DNA of 64,000 bases from a bacterium (lineage in GTDB: Bacteria > Planctomycetota > Planctomycetia > Kolteriales > Kolteriaceae). Of the stretch, positions 19,343-38,420 are shown piece after piece. The stretch's first letter is position 1; each line of letters begins with the position of its first letter. Location: contig JAIELF010000010.1 of the NCBI GenBank assembly GCA_019753235.1, positions 124,001-188,000 on the forward strand, written 5' to 3'. The notes beneath the pieces were generated by a model that was not told where the DNA came from, made no database searches, and was given only the letters and a program-made list of their open reading frames with translations. A program made the translations under genes and the position numbers.

Positions 19343-20385
19343 TGATCGGGACCAAGCCCCGACCGCCGGCAAGCCGACCTTTGGGTCCTCCGTCAACGTT
19401 TCTCACGCACTGCATTTGCGGCCAAGCCATCACCGGCTCGCGTCAACCAGAGTGTCAAGTCCTCACCTGTCCGAAATGTCAGAACGCTGTCTTTGTCCTT
19501 GCCGATAGTCCACTTGCCCCGATCGGCCATTCAGCAGAAAAAAGTCCCGCGTCCTCATCGCATGCAAAGAATCGATCACCTGTTGAGGACTTCGATCCTG
19601 TTCGGCGCCGGCGTCGCGAGCGTGCGAAACGCCGGCTTGCGCGGCGAAGACTTCGAAAGAGTTGGCAGCGATGGACGGCTCCGTTCCGATCGCTGCGGGT
19701 GTTTTTTCGAATACCGGCACTCGTGACAATTGGTTTGGCGGTGGTGTTGATCTGGACAGGCCAATCGCAATTCCTCGCGTATCGCGAGCGTCGATTGGCC
19801 GAGAGCATTGAACGGGCTGGCCGAGATGGGCTCGAAAAAGTCGAGCAAGGGGACTTTGAACATGCCGACCGAGTTTTCGAGCCGATTCGCGAGCGACTCG
19901 ATCTTTCGAACGACAGCCTAGAAGCTTACGCGGTCGCTGCCCGAGAAGCCCACGTGCTGGCCAACCTGCTGCTTGATTCGATTGACCGGAAGATCACCTT
20001 TGTTGCTCAAGAGAAAGAGAGTCGCCGAGAATCGATGCTCGGCCAGGGAATTCTGTTCGATGGGGAAGTTCTTTTCGAAGATGGAAGAGCCATCCTCGAC
20101 GCCCGTGTGTTCGTCCACGATCGGTTGGTACAGGTGCGATTAGGGAGCCTCGATCAAGCTCGGCAAGCAGGAATCACCGAGCCTGGTCGTTACCTCCTTG
20201 CATCGACGCTTCAATCGCTTAATGCCGAGGGATCAGACTGGCAGCTTCAATTGAACCCTGACCATTTGATCGCGATCGTTCACCCGAGTCTCCTAACCCC
20301 CTTGGGATTGGCTGACGAACGGGACCTCGTGGATCTTATTGAGAAACAACGACGGGCGCGCGAAACGAAAGGAGTCTCGCCATGA
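19342..20385 (+). CDS. Zinc-ribbon membrane protein, function unknown
   Basis: 347 residues. The N-terminus carries a cysteine cluster (CICG near 24-27, then a Cys and CPKC near 43-46) that looks like a zinc ribbon. A very basic stretch (RRRRRERAKRRLARRRLRK, around 88-106) precedes one transmembrane helix (VTIGLAVVLIWTG, about 127-140). The rest, probably outside the cytoplasm, is a helical region rich in Arg and Glu (ERAGRDGLEKVEQGDFEHAD), then a more beta part. The start overlaps the PilZ stop by one base (TAATG), and its stop overlaps the next start by four (ATGA). I do not recognise a family. Topology suggests a cytoplasmic zinc finger linked to a periplasmic domain. Confidence 0.75.
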   Translation: MIGTKPRPPASRPLGPPSTFLTHCICGQAITGSRQPECQVLTCPKCQNAVFVLADSPLAPIGHSAEKSPASSSHAKNRSPVEDFDPVRRRRRERAKRRLARRRLRKSWQRWTAPFRSLRVFFRIPALVTIGLAVVLIWTGQSQFLAYRERRLAESIERAGRDGLEKVEQGDFEHADRVFEPIRERLDLSNDSLEAYAVAAREAHVLANLLLDSIDRKITFVAQEKESRRESMLGQGILFDGEVLFEDGRAILDARVFVHDRLVQVRLGSLDQARQAGITEPGRYLLASTLQSLNAEGSDWQLQLNPDHLIAIVHPSLLTPLGLADERDLVDLIEKQRRARETKGVSP

Positions 20386-21959
20386 CCGCGATTCTTCTCT
20401 ATGGAACTCTCGTCTTGGCCGCTCCGATTGCCGTTGAACCGGAAAAGGTCTCTCGCGACCTGTCGGGCAAATTGATTCAGGTGGAAGACCAAGTGACCAG
20501 CGTGCTCGGCGTGGCCGACAATCGTCTGCTTCGACTCTGGCGGTGTCCCGATGTCTCTTTTCGGCTCGATGAATTCGCACCCAAAGAGATTACGGGGAAT
20601 GTGAGGGTCGTCGGTAAGGTCCGCTTTGAATCGTCGCAGGTGGTCGTCGAAGTTCAGAAGCTAGAGCTTCTCCCCAGTGATGATGACCGATTCAAGAAAC
20701 GAGAGTCGGCCATCAACGCGAGTGACCCCTCCGACTGGTACGAGCTCGCGGAATGGGCCCACAAGCGATTCTCTCTCTACCAGGCGGAGTCCATGAGCCG
20801 AGCCGCCCAACGAGCATACCGCAAAGGATTAGACCTCGATCGGCAACAAGCGGGCAACGACATCTCCAAACTCGATGCTCTTCGAGCCCGAGCGATCAGC
20901 AACAAGATCGTTCGTGATCTCGATCTGGCGGAACTCGATCATCACCGCGCGGTGGCTCGGCTACCCAACATCGCTGTCGTGTCGGCAGACGAACTCGAGC
21001 AGGCTGCCGATCGTTGGGCCAAGCAACTTGTACTTCCCGAGGGAGTGAGGCTCTCGTCGACACCCGAGCAGATCTCCGCTTATGAAAAGAATCCCGTCGA
21101 AGTCTATCGACAATCAACGGAGGCGCAGCGGTTGTCGTTATCTCGGTCGATGCAGCTTCGTCTCCTTCGGCTGTCGGCAGAAAAAAGAATCGCTTTGGGC
21201 GAGTGGGACTATGCTCGAGCGGCCCAGTGGGCAGCGGATCATTTGCCGGAAATGCCCGAACTGTCAAAGCGATGGCTTTACCAATCGATCGACGATGAGC
21301 AAGCCAGGCTTGGCCAGGCGCGATTTCGCGATGCGGATAAGCTCGCTCGCCGAGTGATTGATCAGTTGCAAGATAACGCACGCGCGGACACCATCCGAAG
21401 AACCTGGTTGGAATTGATGGAGTCGGCCATGAGAACCAATGAACTTCGGGCCGAGCAAGACGCGCGGGCCGAGAATCGGTCCGCGCCCCCGCGTGACGTC
21501 CGCGCTCGGTATGAATTGGCCCAGCATCGACTCACTTGGTTTCCGAAAGATTCCGCCGATCAGGCGTTGGCCGCGGGTCTCTATCAAGAGGCGCTCGCGA
21601 TCGAGCCGACCTTCGAGCCGGCGATGGAATCGCTGCGAGAACTGGGCTATCGCCGAGATCGGCAAGGAGTTTGGCAAGATCCGAAGGCAGCCGCTCAGAT
21701 CAACCCCACCGATGCCGAGCAAATCCGAAGCGCTACCGTCGGCATGGATGATGCTGCTGTCAAGCGAATCTTGGGCGATCCCGATGCGCATAGCCGATTC
21801 ATCACGGGACCTCGACTAGAAGAAAGACAGTGGCGTTATCAAGGCTTCAAGCAATCGACCTACATCAATTTTCGGGCCGACGGCGCAGGACGATGGCGCG
21901 TGTCAGACATTCGACTGGTCGATAACGAGTCGGCTCCGCAAGGGGATCAAGTCGAATAA
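20382..21959 (+). CDS. Secreted helical repeat protein with BamE/SmpA-like C-terminal domain
   Basis: 525 residues. A short N-terminal hydrophobic stretch (MTAILLYGTLVLAAPIAVEP) is a plausible signal peptide. After a small beta-rich domain (to about residue 100) comes a long helical TPR-like region. The last 75 residues contain DAEQIRSATVGMDDAAVKRILGDP and then YINFRADGAGRWRVSDIRL, which has the layout of the BamE/SmpA-OmlA fold (glycine-Met entry, valine-rich helix, GxP turn, beta strands). The start is coupled to the previous gene by ATGA. Its 3' end overlaps the convergent UbiA gene by 13 bases. Function unknown; the operon with PilZ suggests an envelope output of c-di-GMP signalling. Confidence 0.75.
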   Translation: MTAILLYGTLVLAAPIAVEPEKVSRDLSGKLIQVEDQVTSVLGVADNRLLRLWRCPDVSFRLDEFAPKEITGNVRVVGKVRFESSQVVVEVQKLELLPSDDDRFKKRESAINASDPSDWYELAEWAHKRFSLYQAESMSRAAQRAYRKGLDLDRQQAGNDISKLDALRARAISNKIVRDLDLAELDHHRAVARLPNIAVVSADELEQAADRWAKQLVLPEGVRLSSTPEQISAYEKNPVEVYRQSTEAQRLSLSRSMQLRLLRLSAEKRIALGEWDYARAAQWAADHLPEMPELSKRWLYQSIDDEQARLGQARFRDADKLARRVIDQLQDNARADTIRRTWLELMESAMRTNELRAEQDARAENRSAPPRDVRARYELAQHRLTWFPKDSADQALAAGLYQEALAIEPTFEPAMESLRELGYRRDRQGVWQDPKAAAQINPTDAEQIRSATVGMDDAAVKRILGDPDAHSRFITGPRLEERQWRYQGFKQSTYINFRADGAGRWRVSDIRLVDNESAPQGDQVE

Positions 21960-35847: not shown

Positions 35848-37371
35848 ATGGCGCAGAACTATTATTCGCTGGAACAGGCTGCCAAGATTCTGGGCAAGTC
35901 CACCGAAGAGCTCGTCCAGATGGCACGGAAGCAAGAACTACGTGGCTTTGCCGATGCGGGTAGCTGGAAGTTCCGAACCCAGGATATCGATGATCGCAAG
36001 CGGAACGAAGAGCTTCTCAGCGGCCTGAGCGGACTGGGACTGAGCGCGGCTGGTTCCGCCGAGGACTTCGATGATTTGCTGTTCGAGGACGAGCCGAAGG
36101 CGTCTTCCGCTCCGACGGTCGAAGATATTGCATTGGCGAAAGAGCCTCCCCCCGTCAACCCTTCCGACAGCGCCACGGGCCGAGCCCTTCAGGCGGACAA
36201 AGGGATCAAAGGGAGTGGCGAAAGCGATGTCCGGTTGATCTTCAATGATTCCGATGATGCAGAGGACAGTGGCATCTCTCTGGTGCCCGACTTTGATCCT
36301 GAGGATTCGCACGAGTCAACCAAGCCACCGACCGACAGCGATATTCGCCTCCTCCTTGAAGACGACTCCGAGCCGGAATTGACCTTTGAGGATCCGAAGG
36401 TTTCCGCCAGCAGTTTGCCGACCGAAGAGTTTTTGGCCGATCCGGCGCCGACGATCAAGGGGTCTGCCGACTCGGGTTTGATCCCACTCATGGATGATGA
36501 TTCCGACGATGATCTGTTGCTTGAACCGGCCCCCCGCTTGCCGGCCATGTCCGAGCCGACGGTCGAGGACGAGTTCTCTTTCGAAGATGAACTAGGCACG
36601 GGGCTGGGACTCAAGAAGGATGACGACATCGATCTGGCGGACTTTGATCTGAATGACATCCAACGAGCCGATAAGACGCCGACCATTAAGCAGGCTTCGG
36701 GCGATGATGATTCCGATAGCGACTTCGACTTGAATCTCGAGGACGATATCGGCCTGGCTCAGGACATTGCCCCGGGCGCGGGGGATAGCGGCATCAACCT
36801 GGCCAAGCCAGACGATAGCGGGCTGCTCTTACGAAAAGCCGTCGATAGCGGCGTCAATCTGAAATCGGGCGACACCGACTCTTCCGACAGCGAGTTCGAC
36901 GTCAGCCTCGAAAGCGACGACGACATTTTCAACTCGGACGAACTTCCGACGTTCAAGGCCAGCGATACAGCACCTCGAATGTCGAAAGTCGTGGACGAAG
37001 ATTCCTCGGACGAGATTTCCGATAGCGATTTCGAATTGGCCTTGGATGAAGAAGGTGACGACGAGTCGGGAAGCGACGTCGTTGCGCTCGACGAAGATGA
37101 AGACGACGAAGATGCCAGCGAAGATTACGAGGAGGACGAGGACGCGATCGAGGCCGACGGACCGGTGATGGGAAATGCCCAGCCAGCCCCGTGGGGCGGG
37201 CTATGGGTCGGCGTCCTGTCGGTGACGACGATGGTCTTTGTCGTCGTCATGATGATGATGTACGAGATTTCAAGAAATGCCTGGTCGTATCACGAACCCT
37301 ACCCGCTGACGGCCACGATCATCGATACGGTCTATGAAACCGGGAAGAGTATCGGTGTTCCCTTGCCGTAG
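35848..37371 (+). CDS. Membrane-anchored acidic repeat protein with N-terminal excisionase-type helix-turn-helix
   Basis: 507 residues. The first 55 form a MerR/excisionase-type DNA-binding unit: YYSLEQAAKILGKSTEELVQMARK, then LRGFADAGSWKFRTQDIDD. Residues about 65-440 are very acidic, rich in Asp, Ser and Glu, predicted disordered, and carry recurring short motifs: DSG plus a hydrophobic residue (DSGISLV, DSGLIPL, DSGINLA, DSGLLLR, DSGVNLK), SDIRLLL/SDVRLIF, and DS-acid-F-acid (DSDFDLNLE, DSEFDVSLE, DSDFELALD). A transmembrane helix (VLSVTTMVFVVVMMMMY, about 456-472) and a 35-residue tail close the protein. The topology puts the DNA-binding unit and acidic arm in the cytoplasm. It appears lineage-specific; I know no function. 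Confidence 0.82.
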   Translation: MAQNYYSLEQAAKILGKSTEELVQMARKQELRGFADAGSWKFRTQDIDDRKRNEELLSGLSGLGLSAAGSAEDFDDLLFEDEPKASSAPTVEDIALAKEPPPVNPSDSATGRALQADKGIKGSGESDVRLIFNDSDDAEDSGISLVPDFDPEDSHESTKPPTDSDIRLLLEDDSEPELTFEDPKVSASSLPTEEFLADPAPTIKGSADSGLIPLMDDDSDDDLLLEPAPRLPAMSEPTVEDEFSFEDELGTGLGLKKDDDIDLADFDLNDIQRADKTPTIKQASGDDDSDSDFDLNLEDDIGLAQDIAPGAGDSGINLAKPDDSGLLLRKAVDSGVNLKSGDTDSSDSEFDVSLESDDDIFNSDELPTFKASDTAPRMSKVVDEDSSDEISDSDFELALDEEGDDESGSDVVALDEDEDDEDASEDYEEDEDAIEADGPVMGNAQPAPWGGLWVGVLSVTTMVFVVVMMMMYEISRNAWSYHEPYPLTATIIDTVYETGKSIGVPLP

Positions 37372-37538: not shown

Positions 37539-38420
37539 ATGCGTGGCCAAGGGAGAGCGATTTCCAAACTCGCCGCTCTTTCGTGGCTGGGCGCTGTTCT
37601 TTTGGCGGGATGCCAAGGGCAAGAGTTTCGCGGATTTAGCGGCTATCGTCTGGGCGACAATCGAGACGTTAAGCTCGATCTAGGCCAAAAGCTGGATGCC
37701 GTTGAACAAAAGTGGAAGCAGACAAAGGCTCAACTCGATCAGGCGCTCGCCGATGCTTCCAACCTCCAAAAGCAGCTTGGTGGCCAGCAAGATGTTCAAT
37801 CGCTGTTACAGCAGCGTGTCGACAACCTGCTTCGTGAGAATCAACAGCTTCATCAAGAGTTGACTTCGGTCGTCATGAATGCGGCGGGCGATTCAGAATC
37901 GATTGCCGCCTCGGCCATCGAGAACATTCCGTCGAGTTCGCCGCGGGGGGATGTCGCGGTCCCGCCATCACTGGAACGATCGCTGGCCGCCCTGGCCGAT
38001 CAGCACGCAGGTGTTCAATACGATCCCAAGGAACGGGCCATCCGAATTATCAGTGCCGAGCTATTCCTGGCCGGCGATGAAATTCGTCCCGCCGGTCGTC
38101 GAACGCTGACCGATTTGGCAACGATTCTCAATTCCAATGACGCTCGCAATTTCAACTTTTTGGTCGTCGCCCATGCGGCTCCGGGAGCGACAGTTCCCAA
38201 GGAACTTGTCAGCTATCACCCAACTGTTTGGCATTTGACCGCGCATCAGGCAATCGCGGTCGAGCAGTTTCTCGAAGAGGCTGGCGTCGCTCCGACACGC
38301 GTCGGCATCATCAGTTACGCAGGCCAACAACCTCTCACGCCGGGCAAGGACGATGCAAGCCAGCGAACCAACGCCCGCGTCGAGGTGTTTTTGACTCCTC
38401 CCGATCCGGCAGTCCGCTAG
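37539..38420 (+). CDS. OmpA-family lipoprotein
   Basis: 293 residues. Lipoprotein signal with lipobox LLAGC (Cys25). A coiled coil follows (about 45-110: KLDAVEQKWKQTKAQLDQAL, VQSLLQQRVDNLLREN), then a linker, and a C-terminal OmpA-like peptidoglycan-binding domain (about 175-290) with LFLAGDEIRPAGRRTLTDLA, an AHAAP turn, a helix AHQAIAVEQFLEEAGV and QRTNARVEVFL. The classic NxDxxGxxxxN pattern is only partly kept. It would tether outer membrane to wall. It precedes a convergent PQQ gene by five bases. Confidence 0.85.
   Translation: MRGQGRAISKLAALSWLGAVLLAGCQGQEFRGFSGYRLGDNRDVKLDLGQKLDAVEQKWKQTKAQLDQALADASNLQKQLGGQQDVQSLLQQRVDNLLRENQQLHQELTSVVMNAAGDSESIAASAIENIPSSSPRGDVAVPPSLERSLAALADQHAGVQYDPKERAIRIISAELFLAGDEIRPAGRRTLTDLATILNSNDARNFNFLVVAHAAPGATVPKELVSYHPTVWHLTAHQAIAVEQFLEEAGVAPTRVGIISYAGQQPLTPGKDDASQRTNARVEVFLTPPDPAVR

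Follow-up and report, generated by a model that had tools for sequence, protein, structure and literature searches.

The window, as we call the whole 64,000-nucleotide stretch analysed here, encodes a protein of 507 aa that belongs, from its sequence, to an apparently uncharacterised family spanning the phylum Planctomycetota. A MerR/excisionase-type winged helix–turn–helix (wHTH) at the N terminus is followed by a long acidic arm and a C-terminal transmembrane (TM) helix, and the gene often sits between those for a small secreted protein (the partner) and an OmpA-domain protein. The reading that we favour, tentatively and at somewhat short of even confidence, is a bitopic inner-membrane, cytosol-facing docking scaffold tied to envelope partners.

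A winged helix–turn–helix, an acidic arm and a membrane anchor

The coding sequence (Table 1) has exactly the coordinates given in the first-pass annotation, and its ATG is the family-conserved start, M1 being invariant in two alignments (A1 and A3). That annotation had described an excisionase-type unit, an acidic arm with three recurring motif types and a C-terminal TM helix; all three are borne out here and in the analysis of the arm below. Pfam HTH_17 (PF12728) matched residues 5–50 with E 9.4e-6 and 26.2 bits (cut-off 27), and in a genome-scale six-frame search the score was 30.8 bits, above the cut-off. An AlphaFold model of the head, made from 45 family members, is a wHTH (mean pLDDT 79, with block means above 80 across residues 1–50), and its fold matches are MerR-like. 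The only hydrophobic stretch of the 507-aa protein lies at residues 452–470 (Kyte–Doolittle 2.31), no stretch before residue 420 exceeding 0.81, and 37 residues follow the TM helix.

Compared by sequence with solved structures, the whole protein gave no meaningful match. The sole strong hit of the wHTH profile, 8vd6 ('CAP REPEAT'), was set aside, since the hit is to a repeat protein and does not extend beyond the initial part of the domain. A phage or excisionase origin was likewise rejected: a phage search and PHROG gave no homologue and no mobile-element context was found, and the gene is chromosomal, single-copy and syntenic. A promoter and terminator scan gave results near chance.

Table 1. 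Coordinates of the gene, its protein features and its neighbours in the window.
Feature	Position in window	Strand	Basis
Small secreted partner, 115 aa	35431..35778	+	Signal-peptide-like N terminus, beta-rich domain
Whole CDS: wHTH, acidic repeat arm and TM protein	35848..37371	+	Pfam, orthologues
MerR/excisionase-type winged HTH (HTH_17), residues 1–58	35848..36021	+	Pfam, AlphaFold, Foldseek (RacA, BldC)
Acidic Ser/Asp-rich arm, predicted disordered, residues 59–447	36022..37188	+	Composition, charge–hydropathy
Arm block with strongest constraint, residues 286–415	36703..37092	+	79% identity to L034
Near-invariant motif pair DSGINLxxPxDSGxxL, residues 313–328	36784..36831	+	Alignment A3
ESGSxVxAL motif, residues 406–414, S409 invariant	37063..37089	+	Alignment A3
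Transmembrane helix, residues 452–470	37201..37257	+	Hydropathy
Conserved C-terminal tail, residues 471–507, DLvRNmWsy.xPy-like	37258..37368	+	C-terminal alignment
OmpA-domain protein, 293 aa, lipobox-like LLAGC	37539..38420	+	Domain match, neighbour survey

The family across Planctomycetota

Nearly all sampled Planctomycetota seem to keep the gene. The wHTH profile matched 218 of 246 genomes of the phylum (E 1e-3 or better) and 125 of the 134 good-quality ones; since weaker matches may in some cases be other HTH_17 proteins, 218 is a ceiling on the number of orthologues. Conservation is wider than the first-pass annotation had noted. With the full protein as query, matches were found in 30 of 39 genomes. 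All 29 orthologue ORFs that we read out have wHTH, acidic arm and TM segment, and all 50 full-length members combine a single wHTH, one or two C-terminal TM helices and, between these, an arm that is clearly acidic in 48. Members from other classes are shorter, about 180–370 aa, on the same plan with one or two TM helices. The head is single copy in its own genome, where one other hit reached E 0.38, and a scan of genome contigs gave one close relative only. Neither this protein, its family nor the gene trio of Planctomycetota is described in the literature that we searched.

Another protein with an HTH_17/MerR-like wHTH was observed in the same genome, at L151:1915-3621 (contig C9, about 19414-21120). 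It is a sigma-70-like factor of 568 aa, identified as such by reading its sequence, in which the wHTH is internal; HTH_17 ORFs of similar size occur in about 10 of 12 genomes of the class.

Constrained motifs in the acidic arm

The arm (about 384 aa) contains 30–31% D+E, 6% K+R and 12% S, carries a net charge of −94 and falls on the disordered side of the charge–hydropathy boundary. Its short motifs far exceed their frequency in composition shuffles: DSG[LIVM] occurs five times (shuffle mean 0.15), and SD[IV]RL-type, DS[DE]F[DE] and SGSxVxAL motifs twice, three times and once, respectively (shuffle mean 0.00 for each). Because these patterns were picked after inspection of the sequence, the shuffle counts are post hoc, and conservation among orthologues is the stronger evidence. 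Within class Planctomycetia, SGINLxxPxDSGIxL and ESGSxVxAL are near-invariant in the arms, and S314, G315, L318, D323, S324, G325, L328 and S409 vary little or not at all among 24 proteins of the class. Between the window protein and its nearest relative (L034), arm block 286–415 is 79% identical, compared with 69% for the wHTH.

The first-pass annotation had taken the repeats for multivalent docking sites and had regarded a lack of conservation as evidence against this. Constraint on them is upheld within the class, as would be expected of candidate docking sites; outside the class the arms carry other motifs, for example GSGLLDLTREADDTSLGAELL or DDLIFDEG...GMATAEISSQDTF. Six members with two TM helices (L101, L103, L105, L110, L111 and L118) were seen to share an arm motif resembling GSGLLDLTREADDTSLGAELLDEIYPG. 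A search of 15 genomes with arm segment 286–377 returned orthologues as its only significant matches, with two further hits at E 0.2–0.5.

The usual DNA-contact residues of the head are largely lacking

A Foldseek search of the PDB with the wHTH model placed RacA–DNA complexes first (5i44, E 0.012, probability 1.00), with BldC, MerR-type regulators and excisionases next, and CbpM and DafA further down the list (ranks 30, 34 and 43; CbpM 3ucs is rank 30, E 0.24). BldC contacts DNA through Lys26, Thr27, Thr29, Arg30, Trp31, Lys33 and, in the wing, His46, Arg47 and Arg48; binding is essentially lost with R30A or H46E, and the counterpart of Arg30 is used by RacA too (PMC5859096). Using BldC and RacA sequences confirmed from the PDB, we compared these contacts with 45 family members. 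Recognition-helix positions 20 and 21, equivalent to Lys26 and Thr27, are each acidic (Glu/Asp) in 36 of the 45. Arg is found at the Arg30 equivalent in 22 of 45 and is replaced by Gln24 in the window protein; the Arg47 equivalent is Trp, Met or Leu, and that of His46 is not conserved. Some basic residues persist in the wing: the Arg48 equivalent is K/R in 35 of 45, and, by family numbering, K/R stands at position 41 in 35 of 45 and at position 43 in 41 of 45. The absence of DNA contact residues, which the first-pass annotation had named as the finding that would count against its proposal, is largely what is seen.

Net charge of the wHTH averages −2.5 in the family, versus +4.9 in 30 other HTH_17 domains (p 4e-13), which come from related genomes, are presumed DNA binders and are not phylogenetically independent; helix 2 averages −1.5 versus +1.4 in the other domains, and the recognition helix has a charge of −1 in the window protein versus +3 in RacA and BldC. 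Since the comparators are presumed binders and non-independent, and the wHTH of RacA, like that of the window protein, amounts to no more than +1 net, the residue-level test outweighs total charge. Going by these residues, canonical DNA reading by the family wHTH is unlikely and DNA binding by it in general is disfavoured, although some wing basic residues are kept; weak, wing-led binding is possible, and a protein-docking head would be a better bet than DNA reading.

These results bear directly on the first-pass proposal of a tether between DNA and membrane. In a tether of the kind known from RacA and RocS, the wHTH would bind the chromosome, perhaps weakly through its wing, the arm would serve as a flexible docking spacer, and the TM helix would hold DNA to the inner membrane and, by way of partner and OmpA-domain protein, to the envelope. 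The idea is partly supported. Its architectural precedent is good: the window protein is membrane-held, its head resembles RacA–DNA complexes before anything else and BldC next, and RacA and RocS share the order of N-terminal MerR-type wHTH, long middle and C-terminal attachment to membrane or pole (PMC11500499). The low charge of the RacA wHTH means that overall charge alone is no bar to binding, and wing residues 41 and 43 remain basic. It fails the main sequence test, however, with positions 20 and 21 acidic, the YpG-contacting Arg replaced by Gln24 and a negatively charged recognition helix; single acidic changes kill binding both in BldC (H46E, PMC5859096) and in RocS, where phosphomimetic T41D abolishes or abrogates it (PMC11500499), and an arm at −94 would repel DNA. 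We consider such a tether unlikely, if the strongest of the alternatives to a docking scaffold. A broader version, a phylum-wide linkage of nucleoid to envelope, could have the chromosome held by the wHTH (in a non-canonical, wing-led manner) or by a docked nucleoid protein, with the arm as an adjustable multivalent spacer and TM helix, partner and OmpA-domain protein extending the link to peptidoglycan or outer membrane; this we hold to be less probable still.

An envelope gene neighbourhood

We surveyed 90 loci from about 50 families, 60 of them distant and 30 near (the window's class). The small secreted partner lies directly upstream of the wHTH gene in 63 of the 90 loci (46/60 distant, 17/30 near) and the OmpA-domain gene directly downstream in 40 (37/60 distant but only 3/30 near, making it uncommon in the window's class), the full trio being found in 34, the window among them; these counts are lower bounds, several distant contigs stopping early. 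The partner has a signal-peptide-like N terminus, with an AxA-type site in many members (alignments A2 and A5), and a beta-rich domain of 70 residues that closes with two helices and is mostly modelled at pLDDT above 90; a fold search gave no significant match (best E 0.25). No J-domain protein was among the recurring neighbours identified. At L047, L053, L055 and L058 (families f5 and f7 of the class), genes for ResB-like and CcsA-like cytochrome c biogenesis proteins follow the wHTH gene.

The first-pass annotation had also suggested a membrane-held regulator. In that case the protein, ToxR/CadC-like or proteolytically released, would sense the envelope by means of its tail, the partner and the OmpA-domain protein, and would act on few promoters. 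Membrane attachment stands, and a head similar to MerR/BldC regulators beside genes for envelope proteins would suit such a role, but the DNA face is acidic and no head-releasing protease recurs phylum-wide among the identified neighbours (an M48 peptidase recurs in family f2 only). The heads of ToxR and CadC are a different wHTH and are not known to have a comparable long acidic arm, which also counts against this reading. We regard it as improbable.

In 19 of the 60 distant loci, homologues of PilB, PilT and PilC are encoded about 3–9 kb upstream, on the same strand; a histidine kinase and CNNM proteins frequently separate them from the trio, and in many such loci KsgA, DnaG and RpoD come after it. 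The block PilB-PilT-PilC-(HK)-(CNNM)-partner-wHTH-OmpA-KsgA-DnaG-RpoD was observed at L102, L104, L109, L112, L113, L115, L117 and others. In family f48 (L154, L155, L156 and L158) the partner gene comes directly after a secretin-like gene (PF00263; E 8e-26 and 7e-28 at L154 and L158) with no wHTH protein beside it; the partner can thus occur without the wHTH protein. Proximity to pilus and secretin genes would suit an accessory role like that of FimV, in which the protein would scaffold a type IV pilus or a type II secretion-like machine and the partner would lie near the secretin. Yet PilB, PilT and PilC are absent from the searched stretch in all 30 loci of the window's class, most of the distant loci that have them also hold KsgA, DnaG and RpoD and so have the look of a general superoperon, and the f48 loci lack the adjacent wHTH protein; this is the least probable of the readings considered.

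A candidate docking scaffold at the membrane

In the docking scaffold that we favour, wHTH and arm would face the cytosol, both anchored by the TM helix. Having lost its usual DNA-reading face, the wHTH would act as a head for protein docking or self-association, as does the MerR-like domain of CbpM, and an acidic DNA face is what would be expected of a protein-binding MerR-like domain. Through several short docking sites, the arm could bring client proteins together at the membrane. Coupling of the C-terminal tail to the secreted partner would complete an envelope-spanning unit, in which the OmpA-domain protein, seated on peptidoglycan or the outer membrane, would be reached by way of the partner or by the tail itself. 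In favour of the scaffold are the constant plan of the 50 full-length members, the recurrent gene neighbourhood and an arm block more constrained than the wHTH. Topology is consistent with this arrangement: members L103, L111 and L118, which have two TM helices, carry Lys-rich tails at their C termini, and the positive-inside rule then places their N terminus in the cytosol. With no hydrophobic segment before the C-terminal TM helix, the Lys-rich C termini make an N-in orientation likely for the window protein also, and its tail would then be periplasmic, facing partner and OmpA-domain protein. Against the scaffold stand the best fold match, RacA, which is a DNA binder, the retained wing basic residues, and the scarcity of the OmpA neighbour in the window's class; moreover, gene adjacency can reflect shared expression alone.

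Planctomycetota are unusual in their division, envelope and nucleoid organization, the nucleoid being condensed, and in Planctopirus limnophila 108 phylum-specific essential proteins are of unknown function (PMC10632474). Being single-copy, present in nearly every sampled genome and often part of an envelope trio, the gene is a strong candidate for core planctomycete cell biology. The question it raises is whether the protein tethers DNA or whether a MerR-like head has here become a membrane scaffold, and an 'excisionase/DNA-binding'-type domain in this setting is probably not the mark of a transcription factor.

Comparison with known systems

RacA of Bacillus subtilis (PDB 5i41, 5i44), which anchors the chromosome, is the best fold match and, like the family, ties an N-terminal MerR-type wHTH to a position at the cell surface, in the order N-terminal head to C-terminal anchor. 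Its recognition helix has Lys15, Thr16 and Arg19, whereas the family is acidic at the first two, and it has a coiled coil and DivIVA-dependent pole anchoring where the family has a TM helix and an acidic arm predicted to be disordered. RocS of Streptococcus pneumoniae, a regulator of chromosome segregation, also combines an N-terminal MerR-type wHTH, a long middle and a C-terminal membrane anchor (PMC11500499), but the anchor is an amphipathic helix, the middle comprises a coiled coil and DUF536, and no link to an OmpA protein is known. Streptomyces BldC (PDB 6ama, 6amk) shares the wHTH fold (TM-score about 0.6 by query; rmsd 1.5–1.6 for the best chains); unlike the family it is a free DNA-binding protein of 68 aa, whose Lys26, Thr27 and His46 are not conserved in the family and whose Arg30 is kept in about half of the members and absent from the window protein. 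CbpM (PDB 3ucs) and DafA (9dvi) are MerR-like wHTH domains in protein complexes, and that of CbpM has been solved as one without DNA-binding residues and with acidic interface residues (PMC4063869). Both differ from the family in being small soluble J-domain regulators with neither acidic arm nor TM helix.

The window protein has the architecture of RacA and RocS, an N-terminal MerR-type wHTH with a C-terminal membrane anchor, together with a head comparable to that of CbpM and DafA, a MerR-like wHTH without the usual DNA contacts; the Lys/Thr/Arg recognition-helix contacts of BldC and RacA are largely lacking in the family, with Gln for Arg in the window protein. RodZ and FimV resemble it in another respect, as each organizes envelope machines from a membrane anchor that carries a cytosolic head or acidic segment, but RodZ has another type of HTH and binds MreB, and FimV is built with LysM and TPR parts.
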